Shown: in pieces, positions 1,216 to 54,295 of the stretch
Layout of the letters: each line of letters begins with the position of its first letter
Position numbering within the stretch: position 1 is the stretch's first letter
From: Parelaphostrongylus tenuis
Lineage: Eukaryota > Nematoda > Chromadorea > Rhabditida > Metastrongylidae
Direction: 5' to 3'
Assembly (NCBI GenBank): GCA_019055375.1
Contig: JAHQIW010007302.1
Location: forward strand, 1-64,000
DNA length: 64,000 nt
Program-made: the position numbers and the translations under genes
Notes under the pieces: model-generated
Told to the model about the DNA's origin: nothing
Seen by the model: the letters and a program-made list of their open reading frames with translations, nothing else
The model's database searches: none

Positions 1216-2704
1216 TGTTACAGCTAATTCTAGGCCTTAGAGTATATCAGTTTCTTATCTAAAACATTTCTTTAACGCATACTACTGGCTAATGTTCAAC
1301 ATATCAACAACAGACGTGTCTCCTTATTGGAAAATGTCTTTCAAGAGCGATTCTTATCGGCACAGATATGTTGTATCTGTGAAGTATTTAGCAAACAGTA
1401 AAGGGCACGGTGAGTTAGTTTCTTGAGATGCTCGCATTACTAATAGGTTCGTTTTTTCTTTTGTTTGAAAAGGAGAATTTTACCAAAGGTGGACTTGGAA
1501 AGACGAAATTTCAAGCTGAGTATCTGATTATGCATCGACACGTGTACGTAGAAGACGAAATATGCAAAATGCACGTGACCGCTACCAATCTCATTCGTCA
1601 CTGCTTTTTTCAAGAGAAAGTACAAGGGAAATACTAAGCTTTACAATGAATACTGCTTTCTTGATCAGCAAAGCACGAGGATCTTGATGTACAACCTATC
1701 CCAATGGCTGGTGAATCTCAGCTATTCCAGAGTTCGGAGTAACCAAGTTGACTGCAACCAAATCAGCTAAAGCCTCCACAGTCCCAACAGAAAATCGCAA
1801 ATCCTAAATTTCAACTGCACTTGAGTCAGACGTTACTTTTCTGCACACTCACCACTTTCGAGGAGTCTTCCACTGAATGCTTTACATAAAGGGCAAAGAT
1901 GTCAATTTGCCAACTGCCCAGATTGCTAGTTCAGCAGTTTGTCATTTTCGAAATTAATTTTGCTAGTAGATGTAGGACTCATTCTATATTGGGTTTTAGC
2001 TTTCTGCAACAGTATTGTTTTATTAAGTTTCTTTTTTCATTTCAAATCGAGTAATTTCTGAAAACATGTTTAGATTCAAATGAAATGGACTACCGCAAAG
2101 TGATGTTTTGATTCGACTCTCCACTTTTTAGAAACTGGATCGGACCACAATACCACACCCACCGAATATTCCTGATGTTGCTTCATAGTGTTTTTATCTT
2201 TCCCTCACCCTAATGGAGCATATACGCAAAAAGGCATTCGAAGACAACCAGCTCAAAGGTGACCCAGGCGACTTTTTTTCTCACCATCAGCTTCAATCTG
2301 TATAGGCCTGAGGTATACATATTTTTCCAACAACTGGTTGCATAACATTGATCATGTCGGTGATTATACTGTTAATCAAGTGTTTTCCAATATAGTTGGA
2401 CAAGAGTGTCGAATTACGAAAGTAATCAAGCGCCAGCGCAATAGTCAACAGAACTGTTCGTCATATGACGATGATCAGAGCATGCTTTCGAAAAATATAT
2501 TGTTCATGTATTTACGAGAAGTAAAGGATATGGATTTTTTATGAACGCTGTATGAAGCTAAGCAAAAATTTCCGTGTTGTTGAAGATCGTGTTGTTTCAT
2601 CACTAGCTAAAAAGTGAATATCTTTGCCACAGCATTCTTCTCAACTTTCGAACTGATTGTGCCTAGTTGGCAGTTTCCTGTCAATGCAGAAAAAATACGC
2701 GAAT

Positions 2705-3025
2705 ATACCCAATGATAAGAAGTGATGTTCAAAAACATTTGCGTCAGCTGGAATTCGAGCCCACATCTCACCTTTTCCGGGTGCGCGTGCTGAACCGTTC
2801 ACCATCGAGGCCCGTTTTGCACAACACTCTTTCCACGCTACAATGCGTTATCTGTTATTTGTTATCCGTTATCAACACGTGATCTGTGGTAACGTATAAA
2901 GAGTAGTGTCAAAACAGGCGTCGGTAGTACAACGGTTGAGCATGCGCCCCCGGATGGGGTGAAATGTGGGCTCGAATCCCACCTGATGCAAACGTTTTTT
3001 GCACATCACTCTTTATCACTGAGTA
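2705..3025. repeat. Palindrome of two head-to-head tRNA-derived SINEs, copy 1
   Basis: The two arms are inverted copies of one sequence. Each arm holds a tRNA-like unit. In the right arm (about 2,918-2,990) a 7-bp acceptor stem with two G-U pairs, an anticodon-like hairpin and a perfect 5-bp T stem (GTGGG/CCCAC) around a 7-nt loop CTCGAAT can be drawn. The left arm carries the same on the minus strand. Outer ends read AAGTGATGTTCAAAAA and its complement. The D stem is imperfect and base 33 is not T, so this is a tRNA-derived repeat rather than a working tRNA gene. A second palindrome lies at 21,641 and a half copy at 44,511. Confidence 0.75.
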
Positions 3026-3544
3026 TATTATGGGATCTTTCCACCGCTAAGTCAGCCAAATAAAAAGCATCAAAGTCGTGCAAACACTTGATGTTCTCTC
3101 GACTGAGTGAAGCTCAAAACCGTGCAGATTATTGCTTTAATCCAGACTAAGTGATTTTTCGCTTTTTCTTTTCAATGCAGATTCAAAAGACATGGCGCGG
3201 TTTCATAAAAATCGCTCATTCACAATTCAAGCGTCTCTCATTTTTTTTTAACTAATCGACTCCTACAGCGGTTAGGGTAACATCTTTCAGTTGTTCCTCA
3301 TGATGTAATACCACTGAGAGCCATGAATACTTGAATGTTTTCATTACTATTTGAGCCAACTTGTCATGTGGTCTGTTAAGGGCTCTTGTACGGCCTGATG
3401 CACGTGTTTCGTCCTTACAGACTCATATGCAACAATATTTACTGGCAAACTTAGCGGAAAGCATAACGATCCCTCAGTTTCGAATCACGTGAAGAATCTA
3501 AGAGAACTTTCAGTCGACTATTTTGATACTTCTTTAAGAACAGT

Positions 3545-3865
3545 ATAATCTGACATTGTATTCTGAGCCTTTCATGAGGTGTTCTACGGGCAGTTAAACA
3601 ATGCAAGGTACGTGTTTTGGCTTTTACAGTCTCCTCAGTTGCACGGTGCATTTCAGGGGTAGATAGGAACTTCAAAAAAATTATCTTTTTCTACATGAAA
3701 CTTATAGAAATTTTTAGATCTTCCAGAAACTGACTCAACCAAAAGACACCGTGCAACTGACGAGGCCGTATAATCGAAACACATGTCTTGTCTAAATGTG
3801 CAGTAATAGACCTCATGAAAGGCCCAAAATAAATTGTCACATGTGAAGATTAGTTAATGAAGTAG
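3545..3865. repeat. Fold-back repeat (family F)
   Basis: The left arm, with GAGCCTTTCATGAGGTGT and CAGTTGCACGGTGCATTT, returns inverted in the right arm as CACCGTGCAACTGACGAGG and GACCTCATGAAAGGC. The arms are about 115 bp long around a spacer of about 80 bp. A second copy lies in y2 at 22,785-23,075 and a single arm near 62,868-62,975. It has no coding capacity. It is probably a non-autonomous inverted-repeat element. Confidence 0.55.
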
Positions 3866-4428
3866 AGTTCCCCTCATATTTTGAGTCCTCGAAAGATACA
3901 TATAGGTATTCGCTCAGCAAAAAGTTCAGCCAATGCGATAATTTCATGGATGCAACAGACTACCACTGTTATGTCTTGCACCACGAAATACTGTTTTTTC
4001 CACATGTGAGAAACCTTGAATGGCACAGAGCGCCGTTGTTACACCATCCACTTTTGGGCATAGAAGATCGAAATTATGTAACTGATTGAAAATTCAATCT
4101 TGTTCTTTTGCCAGAATCTTATCAGCTAAAGTCACACTTATTTAGCTCTACAATGTTTTACTGATGAAGGCAGTATAGTATCAGGTCAAATGTATATGCT
4201 CAGTTTCATTGGAGGACTCAGATACCGTGACTGAAATCGTTGCTTTAGAAACTACCACTGGCGTGTAAGCGGTAGGAATGCCTAGCCTGTGCATTTGGAA
4301 TACGATGAAAGTCTATTGAAATGTTTAAGATAAGGGAACATACTTCTGCTATCGACTGCTTTTTTACAGACCCGCTCAAAATGATTTAATCTGATAAGGA
4401 TATTACTTGTTTTGAGCCGATAGGTCTA

Positions 4429-4477
4429 GTGCTATATAGGGCGCCTATTTCGTCCTATTGGGACTCATCAGTAGCAC
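4429..4477 (-). ncRNA. Hammerhead ribozyme, type I, minus strand
   Basis: Read on the minus strand, stem I is GTGCTA (4,477-4,472) pairing with TAGCAC (4,434-4,429). The core CTGATGA (4,471-4,465) follows, then stem II GTCC/GGAC with loop CAATA, then GAAA (4,451-4,448). Stem III is ATAGG/CCTAT with a CGC loop, one base longer than in the two plus-strand copies. The cleavage-site base is A at 4,435, preceded by T as the NUH rule requires. All core positions expected for an active ribozyme are present. Self-cleavage itself is predicted, not shown. Confidence 0.85.
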
Positions 4478-5465
4478 CCTCCCTCGGTTCCGTCGATCCC
4501 TTGAGGTGAAATAATCCGCTAAAGGAACCGACGCCGAGTAAAATTAAGCACCCAAAGTAGGATGATGGTATTACCTGACTTTGTGGTGACCGGTGAAATG
4601 TATACGACACGGACAACGTACTTGTAGTGATGCTGCTTTAAATGATTACAGCTGTTCTGTGATCACGTTACAGAGTTACTAGTACTGACATTGGTCTAAA
4701 AACTGGTGTCGGACTCGTATAGGATTGACCAAATTTCCCCATTTGAAATGCCTTAGTACGGCTACCCTCGAAATTCATATCGCACTGAATCGATCATTAT
4801 TCAAGGGCATTGCAAGAGCAGCACATTATCTCACCGTGTAAAGTAATGTTCAAAAAATCGCCAAATAGTTGCACCCTTAAAACTTTTCATTTTCTAATGC
4901 TTGAATATTTTTTGCCTTTTACTACTTCATTTTTCGCTTTTTTGGCTCAATTATCTTTTGTATTCAAGTTTTTATAGCACAGTCATAGGATTTACTCATT
5001 AAGACTTGTTAACTGATCGTGTTTCAAATATTTTCAGTTGACAGCTAATTATGGTAGCTCATACAGCCAGTTATCATTTGCTATGAGCGGTTCAAATTCT
5101 CTCTATAACAACGACTGTTCGGCACCTTTTATCTGCGGAAAATGGCCGTGCTCCAAAATTTATTGTTTAACAGGCGATTATGCAGTTAGAGCTTCAAAAC
5201 AATCCAAAAAGATAACTCAAAAAGAAGTATACTTCTGCTATCGACTGCTTTTTTTTTGCTGCTTTTTTTTTGCTTTTTGCTTTTTTTTTCTGTAAAAAAG
5301 CAGTCGATAGCAGAAGTATAGTTCATTTTAAAAGCCGTAAGCTCGACTGCCGGTCACCACAAAGTCAGGTAATACCATCATCCTACTTTGGGTGCTTAAT
5401 TTTACTCGGCGTCGGTTCCTTTAGAGGATTATTTCACCTCAAGGGATCGACGGAACCGAGGGAGG

Positions 5466-5513
5466 GTGCTACTGATGAGTCCCAATAGGACGAAATAGGC
5501 GCCTATATAGCAC
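5466..5513 (+). ncRNA. Hammerhead ribozyme, type I, first tandem unit
   Basis: Stem I GTGCTA (5,466-5,471) pairs perfectly with TAGCAC (5,508-5,513). Between them are CTGATGA (5,472-5,478), stem II GTCC (5,479-5,482) with GGAC (5,488-5,491) closed by CAATA, GAAA (5,492-5,495) and a short stem III ATAG/CTAT with a GCGC loop. Predicted cleavage is after A5507. A very short stem III is typical of hammerheads in metazoan retroelements, which often work best as dimers. The stem III arm here is itself palindromic (TAGGCGCCTA), which would favour dimer formation. Confidence 0.9.
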
Positions 5514-5746
5514 TAGACCTATCGGCTCAAAACAAGTAATATCCTTATCAGATTAAATCATTTTGAGCGGGTCTGTAAAAAGCAGTCGATAGCAGAAGTA
5601 TAGTTCATTTTAAAAGCCGTAAGCTCGACTGCCGGTCACCACAAAGTCAGGTAATACATCATCCTACTTTGGGTGCTTAATTTTACTCGGCGTCGATTCC
5701 TTTAGAGGATTATTTCACCTCAAGGGATCGACGGAACCGAGGGAGG

Positions 5747-5794
5747 GTGCTACTGATGAGTCCCAATAGGACGAAATAGGCGCCTATATAGCAC
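5747..5794 (+). ncRNA. Hammerhead ribozyme, type I, second tandem unit
   Basis: The sequence is identical in the ribozyme region to the copy 281 bases upstream. Stem I is 5,747-5,752 with 5,789-5,794, the core CTGATGA is 5,753-5,759, GAAA is 5,773-5,776, and predicted cleavage is after A5788. Two same-sense ribozymes one unit apart would release a unit-length RNA of about 281 nt if both cleaved. That is the processing scheme known for retrozymes. Confidence 0.9.
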
Positions 5795-5879
5795 TAGACC
5801 TATCGGCTCAAAACAAGTAATATCCTTAAGATTAAGGGAACATACTTTGAATCGTTTAGAGTGACGCTACTCTGCTTCT

Positions 5880-8690
5880 TCCTTTTCCAGCTCTAGAACG
5901 TTGAAAATTTTCAAACGCATATGTTTACAATACTTCGTATGAGTTTTCCTATTTCTGTTTCGCATGAAGAGAAAACAAAATTCTTCACTGAGCAGTTTTA
6001 TAAGTCGAAGCGATGATTTACTGTGAAAAATAAACGTAGAGAAGTCGGACAGCTTATTCGTATAGTACTGCTAGGTATGAGCACAGTGTTTGCGCTCCCA
6101 TATTCCGGGCAAACTAAGTCCGGTTCCCACCCAAATCTATAAAGGATCCGCCATAATTCTCAAATTGTTGGTGCCGTTACGGTTATCCACGGAAATCACA
6201 TTGCATTGGCTCGATCACTATTCAAAGACATTACTGGAAACAGTACACTGTTTTGTGGTGTGAAAAATTATGCAGAAAAGTGAGCAGATTGTTGCATTTT
6301 TTCGAAAGGCTTTTATAATTTACACGTTCTCAGTTTTTATTAACTAATTTGTCCGTTTTTGTTTGAAAAGTCATCTCCTTGCTTAGCAAATTGTTAGCTC
6401 AGTTTTAATGCGATTTATATCTATTTCGCTGAATAATAGTATTTCAAATGTTTCTAGTTGGCAGCTCGTTAAGCTAGATAATTCAGTGATGAACCATTGC
6501 CGTTAATGATATGTAATGCTTCTGTACCGAGGAGTGTTCAACACATTCCAATTATAGTCTACCAGGCGAGAACTCGCGTTGTTTTCAAAACAGCTCAAAA
6601 GGATGACATCTGAACCAGAGTACTTGAAGGTTTTCTAAAAGATATTTGCGTCACCCTAATCGTTGCCTTGAGATAGTGATCAGATCAGTGAATTTCCCAG
6701 TCGACTCCACTGTAATGGAATTTTTCCACAAGCTTTCTACCAAATACTTGCACACGCATCTCAAAGGGAAAGCTCAGTACTGTCGAATCATCAGCTTTTT
6801 TCGAGATTATCTGTGAACGTGACTAAAATTGAATAAGCAGCTTCATGCTGCATTAGTTGAAGTACTACTCATCGAAGTTTCGGCACAACATTCTCCTTGC
6901 ACTTTCCACACGCCATCATATCTAGGAAGTGAAGATTTTTGAAGGAAATCACACTGCTGCAAGTCCTCACTCCAGCAGTGATGCAGTATTTCATCGTTTA
7001 TTTTATTTTCTTCGAGAACGCTATCTTCTTCACGACCGAAAATGTCAGACCTTCTCCTCGAACTTTTGGAGCTATTAGGCGGGCTGGAGACTCAATGGTA
7101 GTAAAAACACGGCAGTGATGATCGAAGTAGAGAAAACTCTCATTCATTCTTCGAAAAGGTGCTTCTGCGGAACATAATGATGTGATGGGATTGTTGACAT
7201 TGTTGAAGGTATATGTAGAAAAAGAGAATCAAACGGTATGCCAAAGTCCACTCTCACAAGGGAGTTGATTACACGCCTCACCTATATACATCACCAGCGA
7301 TGCTTACACAACTCTTTTTTTTTGAGATATCTCATCGTAGCTGTCAGTAGCCCACCTTCAGCAGGTTTTGTCGGGTCAGCATATATCTCATTAAACACAG
7401 TTAAGTTGATAACCGTAGTATATGGAACTCTTGCACATTCTTCGTTATTAGTGCTTTCCTCGGTGCTGTGATGTTACGTCGGTGGTGTAATGATGGCATG
7501 TACCTTCGATATGAATGAAATACGGGCTCAGCTCCCGTCTGAGGTCATATACGAATCACGAATGTTGTGTACGAAATGTCGTCTATGTCTCTACAATTCT
7601 CTTTGGCGTGCAAATTAAATAAAATTCGTCATGGGGCAGTTTGAATAACGAAGCAGTGGTTTTTTTTCGGATAAAAATGTAAATGACACTGGAAACGTAC
7701 TTATAGTGATGCTTCTTTAAATGATTACAGCTGTTCTGTGATCACGTTACAGAGTTATTAGTACTCACATTCGTCTAAAAATTGGTGTCGAACTCGTATA
7801 GGATTGGCCAAATTTCCCCATTTGAAATGCCTTAGTACGGCTAAACTCGAATCATATCACACTGAATCGATCATTATTCAAGGGCATTGCAAGAACAGCA
7901 CATTATCTGACCGTGTAAAGTAATTTTCAAAAAATCACCATAAAATTGCACCCTTAAAACTTTCTATTTTCTAATGCTTGAATATTTTTTGCCTTTTACT
8001 ACTTCATTCTTCGCTTTTTTGCTTAATTATCTTTTATAAGCAAGTTGTTATAGCACAGTTATAGGATTTATTCATAAAGACTTGTTGATTGATCGTGTTT
8101 CAAGTATTTTCAATTTCACAGCTAATTAAGGTTGCTTATTACGTGAGTAATCATTTGATGTGAGCGGTTCAAATTTCTTCTGTAACAACGACTGTTCGAC
8201 ACTTTTTATCTGCGGAAAATGGCCGTGCTCCAAAATGTATTGTTTACCAGGCGATTATTTTGATTAAGTTTCAAAACAATCCAAAAAGACAACTCAAGAA
8301 AAATATGGAAAGTTCTCTGAAATCATCTCTGCAACCATGTGCATTGCCTAAAAATAATGATCAAATCATTGAATCATCTAATCTGTTCCAGTGCAGTGAG
8401 AATGCTCTTTTCAGACTTTTTACAAATTATTTGCTCGTGAGTGACATATGTAAAACGTAATCGTCACTGTGGAATCATCAGTCCCTTGATGGGTTTTTTA
8501 TGAAAGTGAATAATGGTGAACAAACACCTTCGTAGCGCATAAGTGGAATTGCCAAGCGACGAGCGTTTCCCCACAATTTCTCCTTGCACTTTCCACACGC
8601 CGTCATAACCAGGAAGTGAACGCTTTCGGAAAAAAATTTCACTGCTGGAAAGTTATTACTTCAGCAGTCATATGAGATTTCATCTTTTTT
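5880..8690. repeat. Diverged ~1-kb repeats in tandem (family Y)
   Basis: The stretches at about 6,170-7,000 and 7,850-8,690 share ordered landmarks. These are a TCGATCA-TATTCAA block, a TTTCAA-rich segment, AAACAGCTCAAAA versus AAACAATCCAAAA, and CTCCTTGCACTTTCCACACGCC followed by GGAAGTGA. A third, closer match to 7,690-8,290 lies inside the hammerhead element at 4,597-5,217. The unit has no coding potential. It may be an old non-autonomous element or LTR-like pair. Confidence 0.45.
7470..7550 (+). repeat. tRNA-like sequence (SINE-derived)
   Basis: A box-A-like GGTGTAATGATGG and a T-arm-like hairpin ACGGG-CTCAGCT-CCCGT are spaced as in a tRNA. No good anticodon arm is seen and the acceptor pairing is poor. 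The same sequence is at about 24,984-25,062 in y2. It is more likely a tRNA-derived repeat than a gene. Confidence 0.4.
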
Positions 8691-9734
8691 CCATAGTCGC
8701 ATATCAATCAGGCACTGTTACCTCTAAGCTACTATAGGACTACTACATTGAAAACTTGTTGTAGTCGAATTACTTAGGAGACATCAGGTGATGAATAATT
8801 TTTTGTAGTTTAAATACAAAACATGTATTGAATAAAAGGTATGCGACAAAATAAGGAGACGGTACGAATAAGTTTGTATCAGCGCATGTGGTCACTTATT
8901 TCTTAAGCAGTCAGGACTTCCTGAAACGTTAAAAATCATGAAACAAATGTTATTCGTCAATAGGCTTTATGATCAATAAGAATACTACATGAAGTCAATC
9001 AATGTGGAGGCCAGAAAAACACAATTACATCTCATTTTTGTTGTGAACAACTAATGGGCAGATAAGTATCAAATAATCCACAGTCAAACAGTGTTTATTA
9101 CATTATACTTAGAAGACAATAGTGAAACACATATTTAATCTCTCTCCTACAGCGCCATCGAAAAAGCTTCTCCAAAATCTGATAATATTTTGGAAGTTCA
9201 AGGGGCGCGTATTGTCTAACGAAATATAAACGAAATAAAAAAAACGCATGGCCATGTGAAACATGATCTTATTTTGAATTTCACATAGTCATAGAAGAAG
9301 GCTTTGAGAAAACGCGACGTAGAGCTCCAGCCAAAGATTCGACTCTTTGAGAGCTGTGTGGGATGTTTCGCCCCAAACCTTGCGACATTAAATCTTCCCA
9401 GTTACTGTAAAGGCGGCGCGGCGACCAGTGAGAAAGGCGACGCATCTCGTAGGAAGACACAGCTCAGACAGCATGATGGATGTGAAGAGACTAATCAGGT
9501 TTGCGGGGCCATTTCCAATATAAAATAATGAAATTTCCTAGGATAATGGAAAGGTAATGGAAAATGGATGAAGCCGTTAAGACTGCCGTAAGCGACTGCA
9601 CGACTCCACCAGCCTATCACGGTTGTCTTCAAAGGGTTAAAGAGAACTTGTAGCCAGTCGGCGAGACGGTCAACGTCAAGTGTTACTTGAAGCACCAAGG
9701 CCGCTGCAGCCAAGCCCTATCATGTTGAGTCGGC

Positions 9735-22784: not shown

Positions 22785-23075
22785 TGACAGTGTACTTTGA
22801 GCCTTTCATGAGGTGTTTTACGGGCAGTTAAACAGTACAGGGTACGTGTTTTGGCTTTACAGTCTCCTCAGTTGCACGGTGCATTTTAGGGGTAGAAAGA
22901 TACTTCGAAAAAAAATCTTTTTCTCAAACATGACACTTACAAAAATTTCCAGATCTTCCAGAAACTGACTAACCAGAAAACACCTGTGCAACTGACGAGG
23001 CCGTAAAGTCGAAACACGTGTCTTGTCTAAATGTGCAGTAATAGACCTCATGAAAGGCCCAAAATAAATTGTCAC
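22785..23075. repeat. Fold-back repeat (family F), copy in y2
   Basis: The inverted arms are the same as at 3,545-3,865, with TTGCACGGTGCATTTTAGG on the left and CCTGTGCAACTGACGAGG on the right. They are slightly more diverged from each other than in y1. Confidence 0.5.
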
Positions 23076-26000
23076 ATGTGAAGATTAGTTAATGAAGTAC
23101 AGTTTTCTCTCAAATTTTGAGTCATCGAAATATACATATAGGTATTCGCTCAGCAAAAAGTTCAGCCAATGCGATAATTTCACGGATGCAATAGACTATC
23201 TCTGTTATGTCGTTGCAGCATGAAATACTGTTTTTTCCACATGTGAGAAACCTTGAATGGCACAGAGCGCCGTCGTTACACGATCCACTTTTGAGCATAA
23301 AAGATCGAAATTATGTAATCGATTGGAAATTCAATCTTATTCTTTTGCCAGAATCTTATCAGCAAAAGTCGCACTTATTTAGCTCTACAATTTTTTGCTG
23401 ATGAAGGCAGTATAGTATCAGGTCAAATGTATATGCTCAGTTTCATCGGAGGACTTAGATACCGTAACTGAGATCGCTGCTTTGTAAAACTACCATTGGC
23501 GTGTAAGCGGTAGGAATGCCTAGCTTTTGCTATTTCGAATACGATGAAAGTTCATTAGAGTGTTTAAGATAAGAGAACATACCTTGAAACGACTAGAGTG
23601 ACGCTATTCTGCTTCTTCCTTTGCCAGCTCTAGAACGTTGAAAATTCCCAAACCCATATGTTTACAATACTTTGGTTTTTATATTTCTGTTTTGTGAAAA
23701 GAGAAAACAAATATCTTCACTTAGCGATTTACAAGTCGAAGCGATGATTACTTCTGAATAATAAATGTAGAGAAGCGGACAGCTATTGGTATGGTACTGT
23801 TAGGTATGAGCAAAGTGTTTGCTCGACCATATTCCGGACAAACTAAGTCCGATTTCCACCTAAATCTAAAAAGGATCCGCTATAATTCCCAAATTTTTGG
23901 GCCGTAGCGCGGTTATCCACGGAAATCACATTGCATTGGCTCGATCACTAATAAAGACATTGCTGGGAAACAGTACACTGTTTTGTGGTGGGAAGAATTA
24001 TGCACAAAAATCAGCAGAAAGTTGCATTTTTTCGAAGGCTCTTACAACTAATTAACTAATTTGTCCGTTTTTGTTTGAAAAACTTGCGTTGCTTTCAAAA
24101 CAGCTCAAAAGATGACTTTTGAACCAGAGTACTTGAAGGTTTTCTAAAAATATTTGCGTCACCATAATCTTTGCCTTAAGATAGTGATCAAATCAGTGGT
24201 ACTTCCAGTCGACTCCACTGTAATGAAATTTTTCCATAAGCTTTTTACCGAATACTTGCACACTCATCTCAAAGGGAAAGCTCAGTACTGTCGAATCATC
24301 AGCTTTTTTCGAGATTATCTGTGAACGTGACTAAAATTGAATAAGCAGCTTCATGCTGCATTAGTTGAAGTACTACTCATCGAAGTTTCGGCACAACATT
24401 CTCCTTGCACTTTCCACACGCCATCATATCTAGGAAGTGAGATTTTTGAAGGAAATCACACTGCTGCAAGTCCTCACTCCAGCAGTGATGCAGTATTTCA
24501 TCGTTTATTTATTTTCTTCGAGAACGCTATCTTCTTCACGACGAAAATGTCAGACCTTCTCCTCGAACTTTTGGAGCTATTAGGCGGGCTGGAGACTCAA
24601 TGGTAGTAAAAACACGGCAGTGATGAATCGAAGTAGAGAAAAACTCTCATTCATTCTTCGAAAAGGTGCTTCTGCGGAACATAATGATGTGATGGGATTG
24701 TTGACATTGTTGAAGGTATATGTAGCAAAAAGAGAATCAAACGGTATGCCAAAGTCCACTCTCACAAGGGAGTTGATTACACGCCTCACTATATACATCA
24801 CCAGCGATGCTTACACAACTCTTTTTTTTTGAGATATCTCATCGTAGCTGTCAGTAGCCCACCTTCAGCAGGTTTTGTCGGGTCAGCATATATCTCATTA
24901 AACACAGTTAAGTTGATAACCGTAGTATATGGAACTCTTGCACATTCTTCGTTATTAGTGCTTTCCTCGGTGCTGTGATGTTACGTCGGTGGTGTAATGA
25001 TGGCATGTACCTTCGATATGAATGAAATACGGGCTCAGCTCCCGTCTGAGGTCATATACGAATCACGAATGTTGTGTACGAAATGTCGTCTATGTCTCTA
25101 CAATTCTCTTTTGCGTGCAAATTAAATAAAATTCGTCATGGGGCAGTTTGAATAACGAAGCAGTGGTTTTTTTCGGATCAAAAAATGTAATGGACACTGG
25201 AAAGCGTACTTGTAGTGATGCTGCTTTAAATGATTACAGCTGTTCTGTGATCACGTTACAGAGTTATCTAGTACTCACATTCGTCTAAAAATTGGTGTCG
25301 AACTTGTACAGGATTGGCCAAATTTCCCCATTTGAAATGCCTTAGTACGGCTAACCTCGAAATCATATCACACTGAATCGATCATTATTCAAGGGACATT
25401 GCAAGAACAGCACATTATCTGACCGGTGTAAAGTAATGTTCAAAAAATCACCATAAAATTGCACCCTTAAAACTTTCTATTTTCTAATGCTTGAATATTT
25501 TTTGCCTTTTACTACTTCATTCTTCGCTTTTTTGCTTAATTATCTTTTATAAGCAAGTTGTTATAGCACAGTTATAGGATTTATTCATAAAGACTTGTTG
25601 ATTGATCGTGTTTCAAGTATTTTCAATTTCACAGCTAATTAAGGTGCTTATTACAGTGAGTAATCATTTGATGTGAGCGGTTCAAATTTCTCTCTGTAAC
25701 AACGACTGTTCGACACTTTTTATCTGCGGAAAATGCCGTGCTCCAAAATGTATTGTTTACCAGGCGATTATTTTGATTAAGTTTCAAAACAATCCAAAAA
25801 GACAACTCAAGAAAAATATGGAAAGTTTCTCTGAAAATCATCTCTGCAACCATGTGCATTGCCTCAAAATAATGATCAAATCATTGAATCATCTAATCTG
25901 TTCCAGTGCAGTGAGAATGCTCTTTCAGACTTTTTACAAATTATTTGCTTCGTGAGTGACATATGTAAAACGTAATCGTCACTGTGGAATCATCAGTCCC

Positions 26001-26630
26001 TTGATGGGTTTTTTATGAAAGTGAATAATGGTGAACAAACACCTTCGTAGCGCATAAGTGGAATTGCCAAGCGACGAGCGTTTCCCCACAATTTCTCCTT
26101 GCACTTTCCACACGCCCGTCATAACCAGGAAGTGAACGCTTTCGGAAAAAAATTTCACTGCTGGAAAGTTATTACTTCAGCAGTCATATGAGATTTCATC
26201 TTTTTTCCATAGTCGCATATCAATCAGGCACTGTTACCTCTAAGCTACTATAGGACTACTACATTGAAAACTTGTTGTAGTCGAATTACTTAGGAGACAT
26301 CAGGTGATGAATAATTTTTGTAGTTTAAATACAAAACATGTATTGAATAAAAGGTATGCGACAAAATAAGGAGACGGTACGAATAAGTTGTATCAGCGCA
26401 TGTGGTCACTTATTTCTTAAGCAGTCAGGACTTCCTGAAACGTTTAAAAATCATGAAACAAATGTTATTCGTCAATAGGCTTTATGATCAATAAGAATAC
26501 TACATGAAGTCAATCAATGTGGAGGCCAGAAAAACACAATTACATCTCATTTTTGTTGTGAACAACTATGGGCAGATAGGTATCAAAAATCCACAGTCAA
26601 ACAGTGTTTATTACATTATACTTAGCAGAC

Positions 26631-28235
26631 ATAATGCTATATGATATAAGTATACTTTTTTGTGGTGGCTGACATAAAATAAATACAATGATCGGATCGA
26701 AGATCATTTAGCGAAAAGAAACTGAAAATTCTTCGAATACTAGACGAAGAGTTTGCCATTTTGTAAAATCAAGCTGCTTATGTAAAACGTTAGTCTTTGA
26801 TGACTCTGTGTAAGGACGCAGAGCTCCCGAGAGAACTGACTATAAAATTATCGAAAGGACGGCGGGTTCTGCCCGACTGACGAAGTCTAATAAGCACTCG
26901 AAATCAAGGTAAAATACTTGAATGATTCCAACTCTTCTACTGATTTAATCTTTGCATTCCTTTTCCAACTAGTTATTATATGACTATATTATGCCGTAAT
27001 AGTAATTAAAAGTCATTCCATACTCAAGCATTTTTCGCTGGACACATCTCTTCATTCAGACTTCCAAAACCATTCGATAGCATAAATCTGAAAGATTCTA
27101 ACGATATGCTTGGTTTTCAGAAAAATTTCTCTCTCCGCTGTTACGATTAGAAAAAAGTCAAGTGTCACAGCCGTCACCGTGTCGATCATGCAGCACAATT
27201 CACATGTGGCGTGCGATGGCGGCCGAATGCGAACCTCAGCATTTTTTTGGCTGGACAACACAAAAATAAGCTCTTCTGGAAATCAGGCACATCATTGAAA
27301 TTGTTGAGATCGTGTTATCAAATGGTAATAAGGCTTAAATGGAAGGCTGTGTCAAGTAGAAGCTTTTGAATGTGCGATAGTTTCATTCTTAATGCTATAG
27401 CACATTGAGATATTTCTTTTCAAGAAGCTAGCGCCATTGAAACTCTCGAAATTAAAACTATCGATTGGGTAATAAAAGTTGATGGCTTGATGTGTTGCGA
27501 AATACATCCACATACAGGTGCGAGCGCTGCGCGCCGTATGTGAAATGCAATCTTAATTTCGGTGTTGAAGCACAATGAAAGTTTATTTAGAAATCCAAGA
27601 AGCAGTTAAATTTGGCAGGATTTGTGCTTTGAATAGTTACTAGACTTTTCTTGAATCTGTCTAGTTGAAAATGCTCACGTGTAAAGAAAAATCTATGTTC
27701 TTTTCTGCCAGACGGCGACAAATGAATATTCGACCACATCTGCTGGACATGAATTTTGCATAGAAGTTTCAATACGCATTCTGAAGCGTAACTCTCTGGC
27801 TAGAGTGATGAATCGCCGGCTCTTCAAGACACACTCTTATGACGGACGTAAAATCGAAAATAAAATCATGTTCTGCACCCGCCGCCTGCCTTCATTTCAA
27901 TCATGCGTATAGTCCGCTGACAGCACGGAAAACATGTGAAGGTGTAGAGGGAATTTCGTAGTATCCGAGCTGATTGTTTCATTTAGAGTGTCTTCCGAAG
28001 TAGAGAAAAAATTCTAAAAAATAACAAATTACATTCCACATGTCTGACACTTTAGACCACTGATCGGTAAGCAATCTAGCAGAATATGTGAAACTTGATC
28101 ATATTTCATCATATTTTCCCTGCTACACTGCAGTGAAAAGATCTTTCCCAGAAAATGACACAGCGCTGGAATTATTGAAAGTCGCCCCACCAAATGATTA
28201 CCAGTAGTTAGAAAAGGAGTTATGCCCAACAAGCT
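26631..28235. repeat. Segment w, copy 1
   Basis: Part of it (27,050-27,970) aligns with w2 at 44,635-45,560, and it is missing between y1 and z1. It contains the inverted copy of repeat E, a piece related to the fold-back element at 58,160, and a piece of dispersed family R near 27,885-27,965. I see no gene in it. Confidence 0.7.
26780..26890 (-). repeat. Repeat E, minus-strand copy
   Basis: It is the inverted counterpart of 22,345-22,450. Read on the minus strand it gives GTCGGGCAGAACCCGCC and TATAGTCAGTTCTC. Confidence 0.5.
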
Positions 28236-53797: not shown

Positions 53798-54295
53798 CGT
53801 CGCAGCAAAAGGCACAAATACGGGATCAAATGGTTCAAACTGTGTAGTTTAGGAGAACACACGCACAACACGTTCCCATACGCAAGTATAGGCGCAACTT
53901 CCATGTGCGCCGGACCAATCTCAAGTATTGTGATGGACACAATGGATGGTTTACTAGATGAGGGTCGACGCGTCTACACCGTCAGTGGGTATACTAGTGT
54001 TGGACTTGACGTGGGTCTGTTGCAGGAAAAAACGCACTTGCTCGGGACGTGCAGAAAGAATAGGCGAGAATTACCTAATGAATTTATGCAACATCAACTG
54101 GAGAAGGGGCACGCAGTGGCCGTACAGAATAAGAAAGGCGTAATGGTGCTCAGATTGAATGATAAGAAAGATGTTGTGATAATTTCTACAACACGCGGCC
54201 CCAAAATCGACCCAACAACTAAGAAATTTGAGGTCGCTCTTAGTTACAGTGAGCAAAACTTTCTTGTAGATTTCATGCATCAGGAAGGCTTATAA
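53798..54295 (+). pseudogene. piggyBac-like transposase fragment
   Basis: The frame is open from 53,798 (after a TAA at 53,795-53,797) to the TAA at 54,296-54,298. A likely acceptor GTCGCAG ends at 53,805, and the first Met is at 53,903. Early residues HKYGIKWFKLC match the piggyBac RNase H-like core (HKYGIKLFKLC), and later ones LLQEKTHLLGTCRKNRRELP match the KRKTHLxGTxRxNRxGLP block. The second catalytic Asp lies in a DNFYTS motif in the family. Here the position reads SGYTS, so the Asp is lost. The end VALSYSEQNFLVDFMHQ replaces the expected VDxxDQ. No upstream exon or terminal repeats were found. It is a fragment, but it is uninterrupted for about 165 codons, so an exapted role cannot be excluded. 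Confidence 0.75.

Follow-up and report, generated by a model that had tools for sequence, protein, structure and literature searches.

Head-to-head insertions of a hammerhead retrozyme in the nematode Parelaphostrongylus tenuis suggest probable mobilisation by Penelope-like machinery

Introduction

Metazoan non-LTR retrozymes carry a type I hammerhead in tandem units of about 170–400 nt and encode no protein (PMC7229834). The enzyme that mobilises them was left open, with Penelope-like elements (PLEs) named as a strong candidate because the two have type I hammerheads, tandem copies and hosts in common (PMC7229834). Plant LTR retrozymes are also non-autonomous, with a hammerhead and dimeric units (PMC4918200, PMC7761336, PMC7229834). 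In A. vaga, Penelope insertions hold host DNA captured between one inverted and two direct pLTRs, and for a captured NRPS gene an 8-bp duplication is described, together with an allelic site that is empty (PMC3846280). The protein of an Anolis PLE (Poseidon, PAc) cuts and extends both target strands, and it starts internally at two sites, located in a stem-loop, that define the tail (PMC11167929). Its targets are AT-rich, hammerhead cleavage is dispensable for its insertion in vitro, and it starts without homology to the cut DNA and at the same sites on both strands (PMC11167929). The main text of PMC7229834 makes no mention of nematodes or of inverted layouts, and a limited search of open-licence PubMed Central papers returned no report of retrozymes in nematodes.

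Here, we analyse a 64,000-nt stretch of Parelaphostrongylus tenuis DNA (contig JAHQIW010007302.1, assembly GCA_019055375.1; hereafter the window), in which an earlier note had proposed a non-autonomous hammerhead element that mixes retrozyme-type tandem units with Penelope-type inverted units. The reading we prefer, at a probability of roughly three in four, is that the window copy is one insertion of a high-copy strongylid retrozyme mobilised in trans by PLE machinery (reverse transcriptase (RT) and GIY-YIG).

Methods

The genome searched was the P. tenuis assembly (481.5 Mb, 5,105 contigs). With the unit as query, 40 scored of 2,201 candidates gave 147 matches, which were grouped into 39 places as the discovery set; this set is biased to near-identical units because it was drawn from those 40. 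Two insertions were represented more than once (five of the 39 are further copies of the window's insertion and four share one other insertion), and removal of seven redundant loci left 32 insertions. The held-out set consists of one locus, the first by contig number, from each of 20 clusters among 30 loci, a 21st being left out as already used, and its loci reach 1.5 kb to each side. Scoring rules were fixed before the 20 held-out insertions were read, and the independence of insertions rests on their differing junction contexts.

RNA positions are numbered from the first base after the predicted hammerhead cut (nt 1, window position 5508). Two end windows, A (nt 36–52) and B (nt 84–104), were set by eye on the discovery data and then frozen. 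The right end of L070 is unscored, as a separate fragment follows it.

Results

The window's insertion lies in a locus, y1, and is flanked by exact 15-nt direct repeats (Table 1), whereas none of 5,000 random pairs at the same distance shared such a repeat and the longest common run among them was 11. The direct repeats of 19/20 bp described earlier are recovered with one gap allowed (about 19/20), the exact stretch being 15 nt. The paralogous locus y2 carries a single copy of the repeat and no insertion, in agreement with the empty site that had been placed near 23,574. The element-derived limits of the insertion are about 4340–5831; the longest frame over this interval is 92 aa and a Pfam scan of its two longest frames gave no match above cut-off, as expected from the proposal that the insertion encodes no protein. 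The tandem period of the unit is 281 nt, with a GC content of 43%, and the three units of the insertion differ pairwise by 1–2 substitutions and two gap columns per 197–257 aligned nt. In the interval 4,344–5,825, earlier taken as the element, the insertion itself, its inverted left unit and its sense tandem on the right all hold, but the middle is host DNA.

Near-identical copies of the locus are present in five further places on four contigs (99.4–99.9% over 6.5 kb), which makes an artefact of a single contig unlikely. The insertion-bearing locus is accordingly found in six near-identical places (window 2000–9000 and L009–L013). Three of the copies differ from the window by gaps alone, with zero substitutions; this hints at recent segmental duplication or at haplotigs, with indel errors added in either case.

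Table 1 Features of the insertion and of its paralogous sites, in window coordinates
Feature	Position	Strand	Remarks
Left target-site duplication TAAGGGAACATACTT	4331-4345		last 6 nt match the unit too
Antisense retrozyme unit, 254 nt	4340-4593	-	outer end phase 88-94 (site B), inner end phase 124-125
Hammerhead core of antisense unit	4448-4471	-	predicted cut after 4435 on - strand
Captured host DNA, ~630 bp	4596-5226	+	89% identity to 7675-8303 and 25183-25816; right junction ambiguous, ~5219-5230
Short second antisense piece, ~36 nt, 94%	5219-5254	-	start near the left end's RNA point
T-rich stutter, CTGCTTTTTTTTTG-like repeats	5245-5288		looks like repeated copying of the unit's AAAAAAGCAG
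Tandem sense array, 1.9 copies of the 281-nt unit	5289-5831	+	outer end phase 40-49 (site A)
8-bp hairpin GCAGTCGA...TCGACTGC	5300-5350	+	site B in loop; from folding, no covariation
Type I hammerhead, first sense unit	5466-5513	+	core 5472-5495; predicted cut after 5507
Type I hammerhead, second sense unit	5747-5794	+	core 5753-5776; predicted cut after 5788
Right target-site duplication TAAGGGAACATACTT	5833-5847
Resident paralog of captured segment, same locus	7675-8303	+
Empty site in y2	23570-23584		13/15 identical to duplication
Resident paralog of captured segment in y2	25183-25816	+

The hammerhead core CTGATGAGTCCCAATAGGACGAAA occurs in all three units and in none of 100 shuffles. A strict type I structural descriptor, applied to both strands of the window, finds exactly three hammerheads, matching the three complete ones claimed before, and none in 60 Markov resamples; chance hammerheads are ruled out by these two controls. 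In the covariance-model scan that had been proposed as a check, an Rfam search of 1.6 kb lists the two sense hammerheads at 29.5 bits (E 8.6e-5) against a gathering cut-off of 34, and the left one solely as a 23-bit HH9 match (E 0.008); the hammerheads are unreported in an Rfam scan of the window at gathering score. Helix III is 4–5 bp long with a loop of 3–4 nt, whereas the minimal PLE hammerhead lacks helix III or loop-loop contacts. For a 77-nt piece, folding places the hammerhead structure 3.6 kcal/mol higher than the minimum-energy prediction. Folded as a circle, the unit reaches −83.0 kcal/mol against −61.0 ± 5.3 in 200 shuffles, none of which was as low, and stem-loops are predicted around site A (nt 18–25 with 54–61) and site B (nt 75–82 with 118–125), where the alignment columns are too nearly invariant for covariation to be seen. 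Divergence along the unit is lowest in the hammerhead stretch (0.6%), followed by the A–B stretch (1.5%), nt 125–230 (2.7%) and nt 1–40 (7.4%), and the fetched loci hold 96 core motifs in 102 unit equivalents.

Genome-wide, the core pattern was found 1,459 times (705 forward, 754 reverse) and its reversed control not once on either strand (0 + 0), which bears out the many copies predicted earlier. The predicted inverted-plus-tandem layout recurs as well, with an antisense piece first and sense units after it (head-to-head) in 27/32 discovery and 15/20 held-out insertions, 42/52 in total; the remaining 10/52 are without an antisense part. Shared runs of at least 8 nt at the two ends are present in 29/32 discovery and 15/20 held-out insertions (44/52 in total; 8/52 are without one), compared with 48 of 1,000 mismatched pairs. 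Independent target-site duplications are therefore a property of the family, but they are shorter than the 15–20 bp anticipated, with a median of 12 in the discovery set. With both layout and duplications recurring, the earlier proposal of a non-autonomous hammerhead element of mixed retrozyme and Penelope character in a nematode is supported, although host DNA in the middle and two-point ends had been overlooked. Exact-match searches of public viral contigs with two patterns and of prokaryote genomes with one pattern found none. A large head-to-head array at L027 (1660–4786) holds the equivalent of about 4.5 antisense and 6.7 sense units and has a duplication of 12 nt.

Near-identical units in tandem and inverted order are prone to both recombination and mis-assembly, and contigs that differ from one another by gaps alone are a sign of indel errors, so that a satellite-like array rearranged in either way, instead of an insertion, might be considered. 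At the window locus this is at odds with the empty site and the 15-nt duplication, and all six places concur on the junction of the insertion; across the sample, shared runs of at least 8 nt occur at 44/52 loci, whose junction contexts differ. The array reading is largely contradicted by these independent duplications and we consider it highly improbable.

The outer ends of the insertions cluster at two points on the RNA, about 50 nt apart. Right ends fall in A or B in 31/32 discovery and 17/19 scored held-out insertions, and left antisense ends in 23/27 and 12/15, respectively; against a uniform distribution over the RNA, the held-out ends give p 2e-13 (right) and 1e-8 (left). Moreover, the two ends of an insertion use opposite points in 19/22 discovery and 10/10 held-out cases, that is, in 29/32 of scorable insertions (Fisher 0.0023 and 0.0079; combined 6.6e-6). 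In the window's own insertion, read from its sister L009, the left end uses B and the right end uses A. The left ends of L017, L036, L038, L039, L053, L056 and L057 fall in neither A nor B, and the same is true of the right ends of L020 (59, or 44 once the duplication is trimmed), L054 and L074. Same-site pairs are found in L018, L019 and L029, of which L018 and L029 are without a clear duplication and L029 looks nested. In the discovery set, the duplications are AT-rich (26% GC against 39% in the left flanks) and overlap the element by a mean of 2.6 nt per end, a value inflated by L020 (15 and 13 nt), against about 0.4 expected by rough calculation. That the two ends use opposite points may reflect a paired complex assembled on a single RNA; such opposite use is undescribed in the PLE work compared here.

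The middle block of the window's insertion makes up about 43% of it and is 89% identical to the two resident copies (Table 1); from end to end it is also homologous, at 57%, to 6032–6619, which adjoins the insertion. Homology among the resident copies runs past the borders of the block (7600–8320 with 5956–6638, and 8308–8698 with 6626–7010), its scores exceeding those of block shuffles by more than 16 standard deviations, which argues that the block is host-locus DNA whose cut ends abut retrozyme pieces. By these alignments, the middle of the window's insertion is captured host DNA, a point missed in the earlier note. A mobile-element body was tried as an explanation of the block and rejected, given that its whole length is homologous to resident locus DNA and that the resident homology exceeds its borders. 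Divergence between the block and the two resident copies is 10.8% and 10.7%, compared with 2.5% between the copies themselves, so the block would come from a third copy or be older than a conversion. Capture from 7675–8303 itself is unlikely at a divergence of 10.8%, compared with 0.4–1.0% among the units, unless gene conversion intervened.

The gap between antisense and sense parts of the discovery insertions ranges from −6 to +36 nt; the window's insertion and L034 (209 nt) are the exceptions. Held-out exceptions are L051 (152 nt) and L075 (144 nt), the distance being 46 nt in L065 and 31 nt in L053, and inserted stretches of more than 100 nt are present in 4/42 head-to-head insertions. A host origin is seen for the stretch in the window's insertion and for part of that in L034, which is a repeat present at 95% in the flank of L026. 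In L075 the spacer resembles an AT repeat; that of L051 gave no match to the window or the fetched loci. GCAG/CTGC-poly(A) stutters, A-rich or T-rich, adjoin captured sequence in L034 (1429–1637) and in the window (5245–5288), as if the polymerase had slipped and then switched template.

The block lies directly upstream of the short antisense piece and the sense units and, being 89% identical to each of the two resident paralogs, seems to derive from a diverged third source. Both observations would suit transduction, in which the block was already joined to a retrozyme at the source locus, was co-transcribed with it and was inserted as its 5′ flank, the left inverted unit alone having arisen at this insertion. 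This reading bears on the capture step alone and we find it rather doubtful: spacers of more than 100 nt are present in L034, L051 and L075 too, so bridging by other sequence occurs in the family. For the window copy we prefer a join bridged at the time of insertion, as set out below.

GIY-YIG (PF01541) is above cut-off in all 150 scored of 1,723 candidates, in open frames of up to 902 aa. Neighbouring pairs within 6 kb among these 150 are arranged head-to-head, as "− then +", in 20 cases, as "+ then −" in none and on the same strand in 2. The one frame with both RVT_1 and GIY-YIG that was read, at locus L078, is 893 aa long, and the locus holds an inverted copy of 1,957 bp at 100% identity. 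Over 4.9 kb, short of its outer ends, this locus has no hammerhead motif and shares nothing longer than 10-nt words with the retrozyme unit, so that no common recognition site emerged. A search with the 893-aa protein gave 103 relatives among 7,992 candidates scored; the best species-named ones are from Necator, Ancylostoma and Haemonchus (48–63%), and weaker ones from these and other nematodes. Judged by these frames, autonomous PLEs appear to exist in the same genome as the retrozyme.

Frames of at least 140 aa in the fetched retrozyme loci, judged by eye, include no PLE, just other RT frames; one in L047 we take, by eye, to be such a frame. In the window, a 212-aa frame that is presumably RTE-like is closest to Parelaphostrongylus tenuis (76%), a species placed in Metastrongylidae, followed by Angiostrongylus, Ancylostoma, Necator and Heligmosomoides. 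With such frames at hand, a LINE (for example RTE) could move the retrozyme by ordinary target-primed reverse transcription with twin priming, giving an inverted left part, a direct right part and duplications; duplications of about 12 nt and terminal microhomology are compatible with twin priming. However, a LINE normally starts at just one tailed 3′ end of its RNA, whereas here both ends start inside the repeat and at two points in opposite pairing, the inverted part is the rule (42/52) and no poly(A) tail was seen by eye at the right ends inspected. We therefore regard a LINE as an unlikely mover and continue with PLE machinery as the favoured one.

Discussion

Like metazoan non-LTR retrozymes, the element has a type I hammerhead, a unit within about 170–400 nt, a GC content below 50%, duplications of more than 4 bp and numerous copies, from dimers to long arrays, and it encodes no protein (PMC7229834). 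By the features tested, namely hammerhead, tandem units, GC, lack of protein, duplications and dispersed copies, the window element is a retrozyme on sequence criteria. Metazoan retrozymes as described in the main text of PMC7229834 are tandem repeats only, whereas head-to-head layout, two-point ends and captured host DNA are found here; circular RNA has been demonstrated for them and would be one possible form of the RNA here. Plant LTR retrozymes are likewise non-autonomous, with a hammerhead and dimeric units, but their hammerhead is type III and their duplication 4 bp, as opposed to type I and 15 nt here, and they have PBS and PPT and a length of about 700 bp (PMC7761336, PMC7229834).

The A. 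vaga Penelope insertions share with the window's insertion the inverted and direct terminal repeats, the target-site duplication, the empty site and host DNA, non-coding too, between the repeats (PMC3846280). There the repeats are pLTRs of an element with RT and GIY-YIG, whereas here a 281-nt unit without a long frame stands free and head-to-tail; duplications are 8–10 bp where given for Penelope (PMC3846280), against the median of 12 here. The likeness to PAc lies in two-strand extension, two internal points, a stem-loop (predicted here) and AT-rich targets (PMC11167929). However, PAc is a cis element with a tail of 30–40 nt, compared with an A–B distance of about 50 nt, and its starts showed neither homology to the cut DNA nor a difference between top and bottom strands (PMC11167929), in contrast to the overlap of 2–3 nt and the opposite use seen here. 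Without RT or nuclease and with a longest frame of 92 aa, the window element is not itself an autonomous PLE. The PLE insertion signature is nevertheless present, with inverted and direct repeats, a target-site duplication and two end points (starts deduced from ends), and by analogy the element seems to behave like a PLE substrate.

From this we infer the action of the PLE on the retrozyme, the priming steps, the form of the RNA and the route of capture as follows. Tandem retrozyme copies would be transcribed, with a multimer or a circle as template, given that the cDNAs run across the predicted hammerhead cut sites. The endonuclease would make cuts staggered by about 8–16 nt in the two strands of an AT-rich target, and each target 3′ end, annealed over 2–3 nt, would prime reverse transcription inside the RNA, one end starting at site A (about nt 39–51) and the other at site B (about nt 84–104), each in the loop of a predicted stem-loop. 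As they are extended, the two cDNAs would converge around the repeat, and their joining would produce the order duplication, antisense part, sense tandem, duplication. In the window copy, the join would be bridged by about 630 bp from a local host-repeat paralog, through a template switch or patch repair. Three features argue for a PLE protein acting in trans on the retrozyme RNA: head-to-head extension, the pair of end points, and cDNAs running across the predicted cut.

A wider proposal, which we hold with about equal belief and doubt, is that Penelope-type insertion proceeds by two-stranded target-primed reverse transcription, with a different start site given to each target end, either way round, and that the retrozyme is its minimal natural substrate, consisting of two stem-loops and a hammerhead and able to paste host DNA into the join. 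If true, a single rule would account at once for the duplications, the tail at one side and the head-to-head layout, and the footprint suggests how the inverted repeats and tails of PLE insertions originate. The footprint of retrozyme insertion is given here at the nucleotide level from dozens of insertions in a single genome, a held-out test included, and a candidate mobilising enzyme is encoded in that same genome. The enzyme question may thereby be reduced to one experiment, and the spread of self-cutting RNA elements in animals becomes testable. Host DNA is also seen here to be captured by an element that encodes nothing.

Other features of the window

Identity between y1 and y2 leaps from 83% to 97.6% at a sharp border (6571–9118 against 24081–26631), and the 2,565 aligned columns contain 30 gap openings; either gene conversion or assembly indel errors may explain this. 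A weak hammerhead-like motif at 22989–23025 (20.9 bits against the cut-off of 34) lies inside a palindromic repeat of about 295 bp that is common to y1 and y2, and its y1 copy (3757–3779) looks decayed. Another palindromic repeat (2702–3029), with diverged copies elsewhere in the window, contains a tRNA-Ser(GGA) predicted by Rfam and ARAGORN at 2918–2990. A frame at 53798–54292 matches DDE_Tnp_1_7 (E 5.7e-16) and is presumably piggyBac-like.
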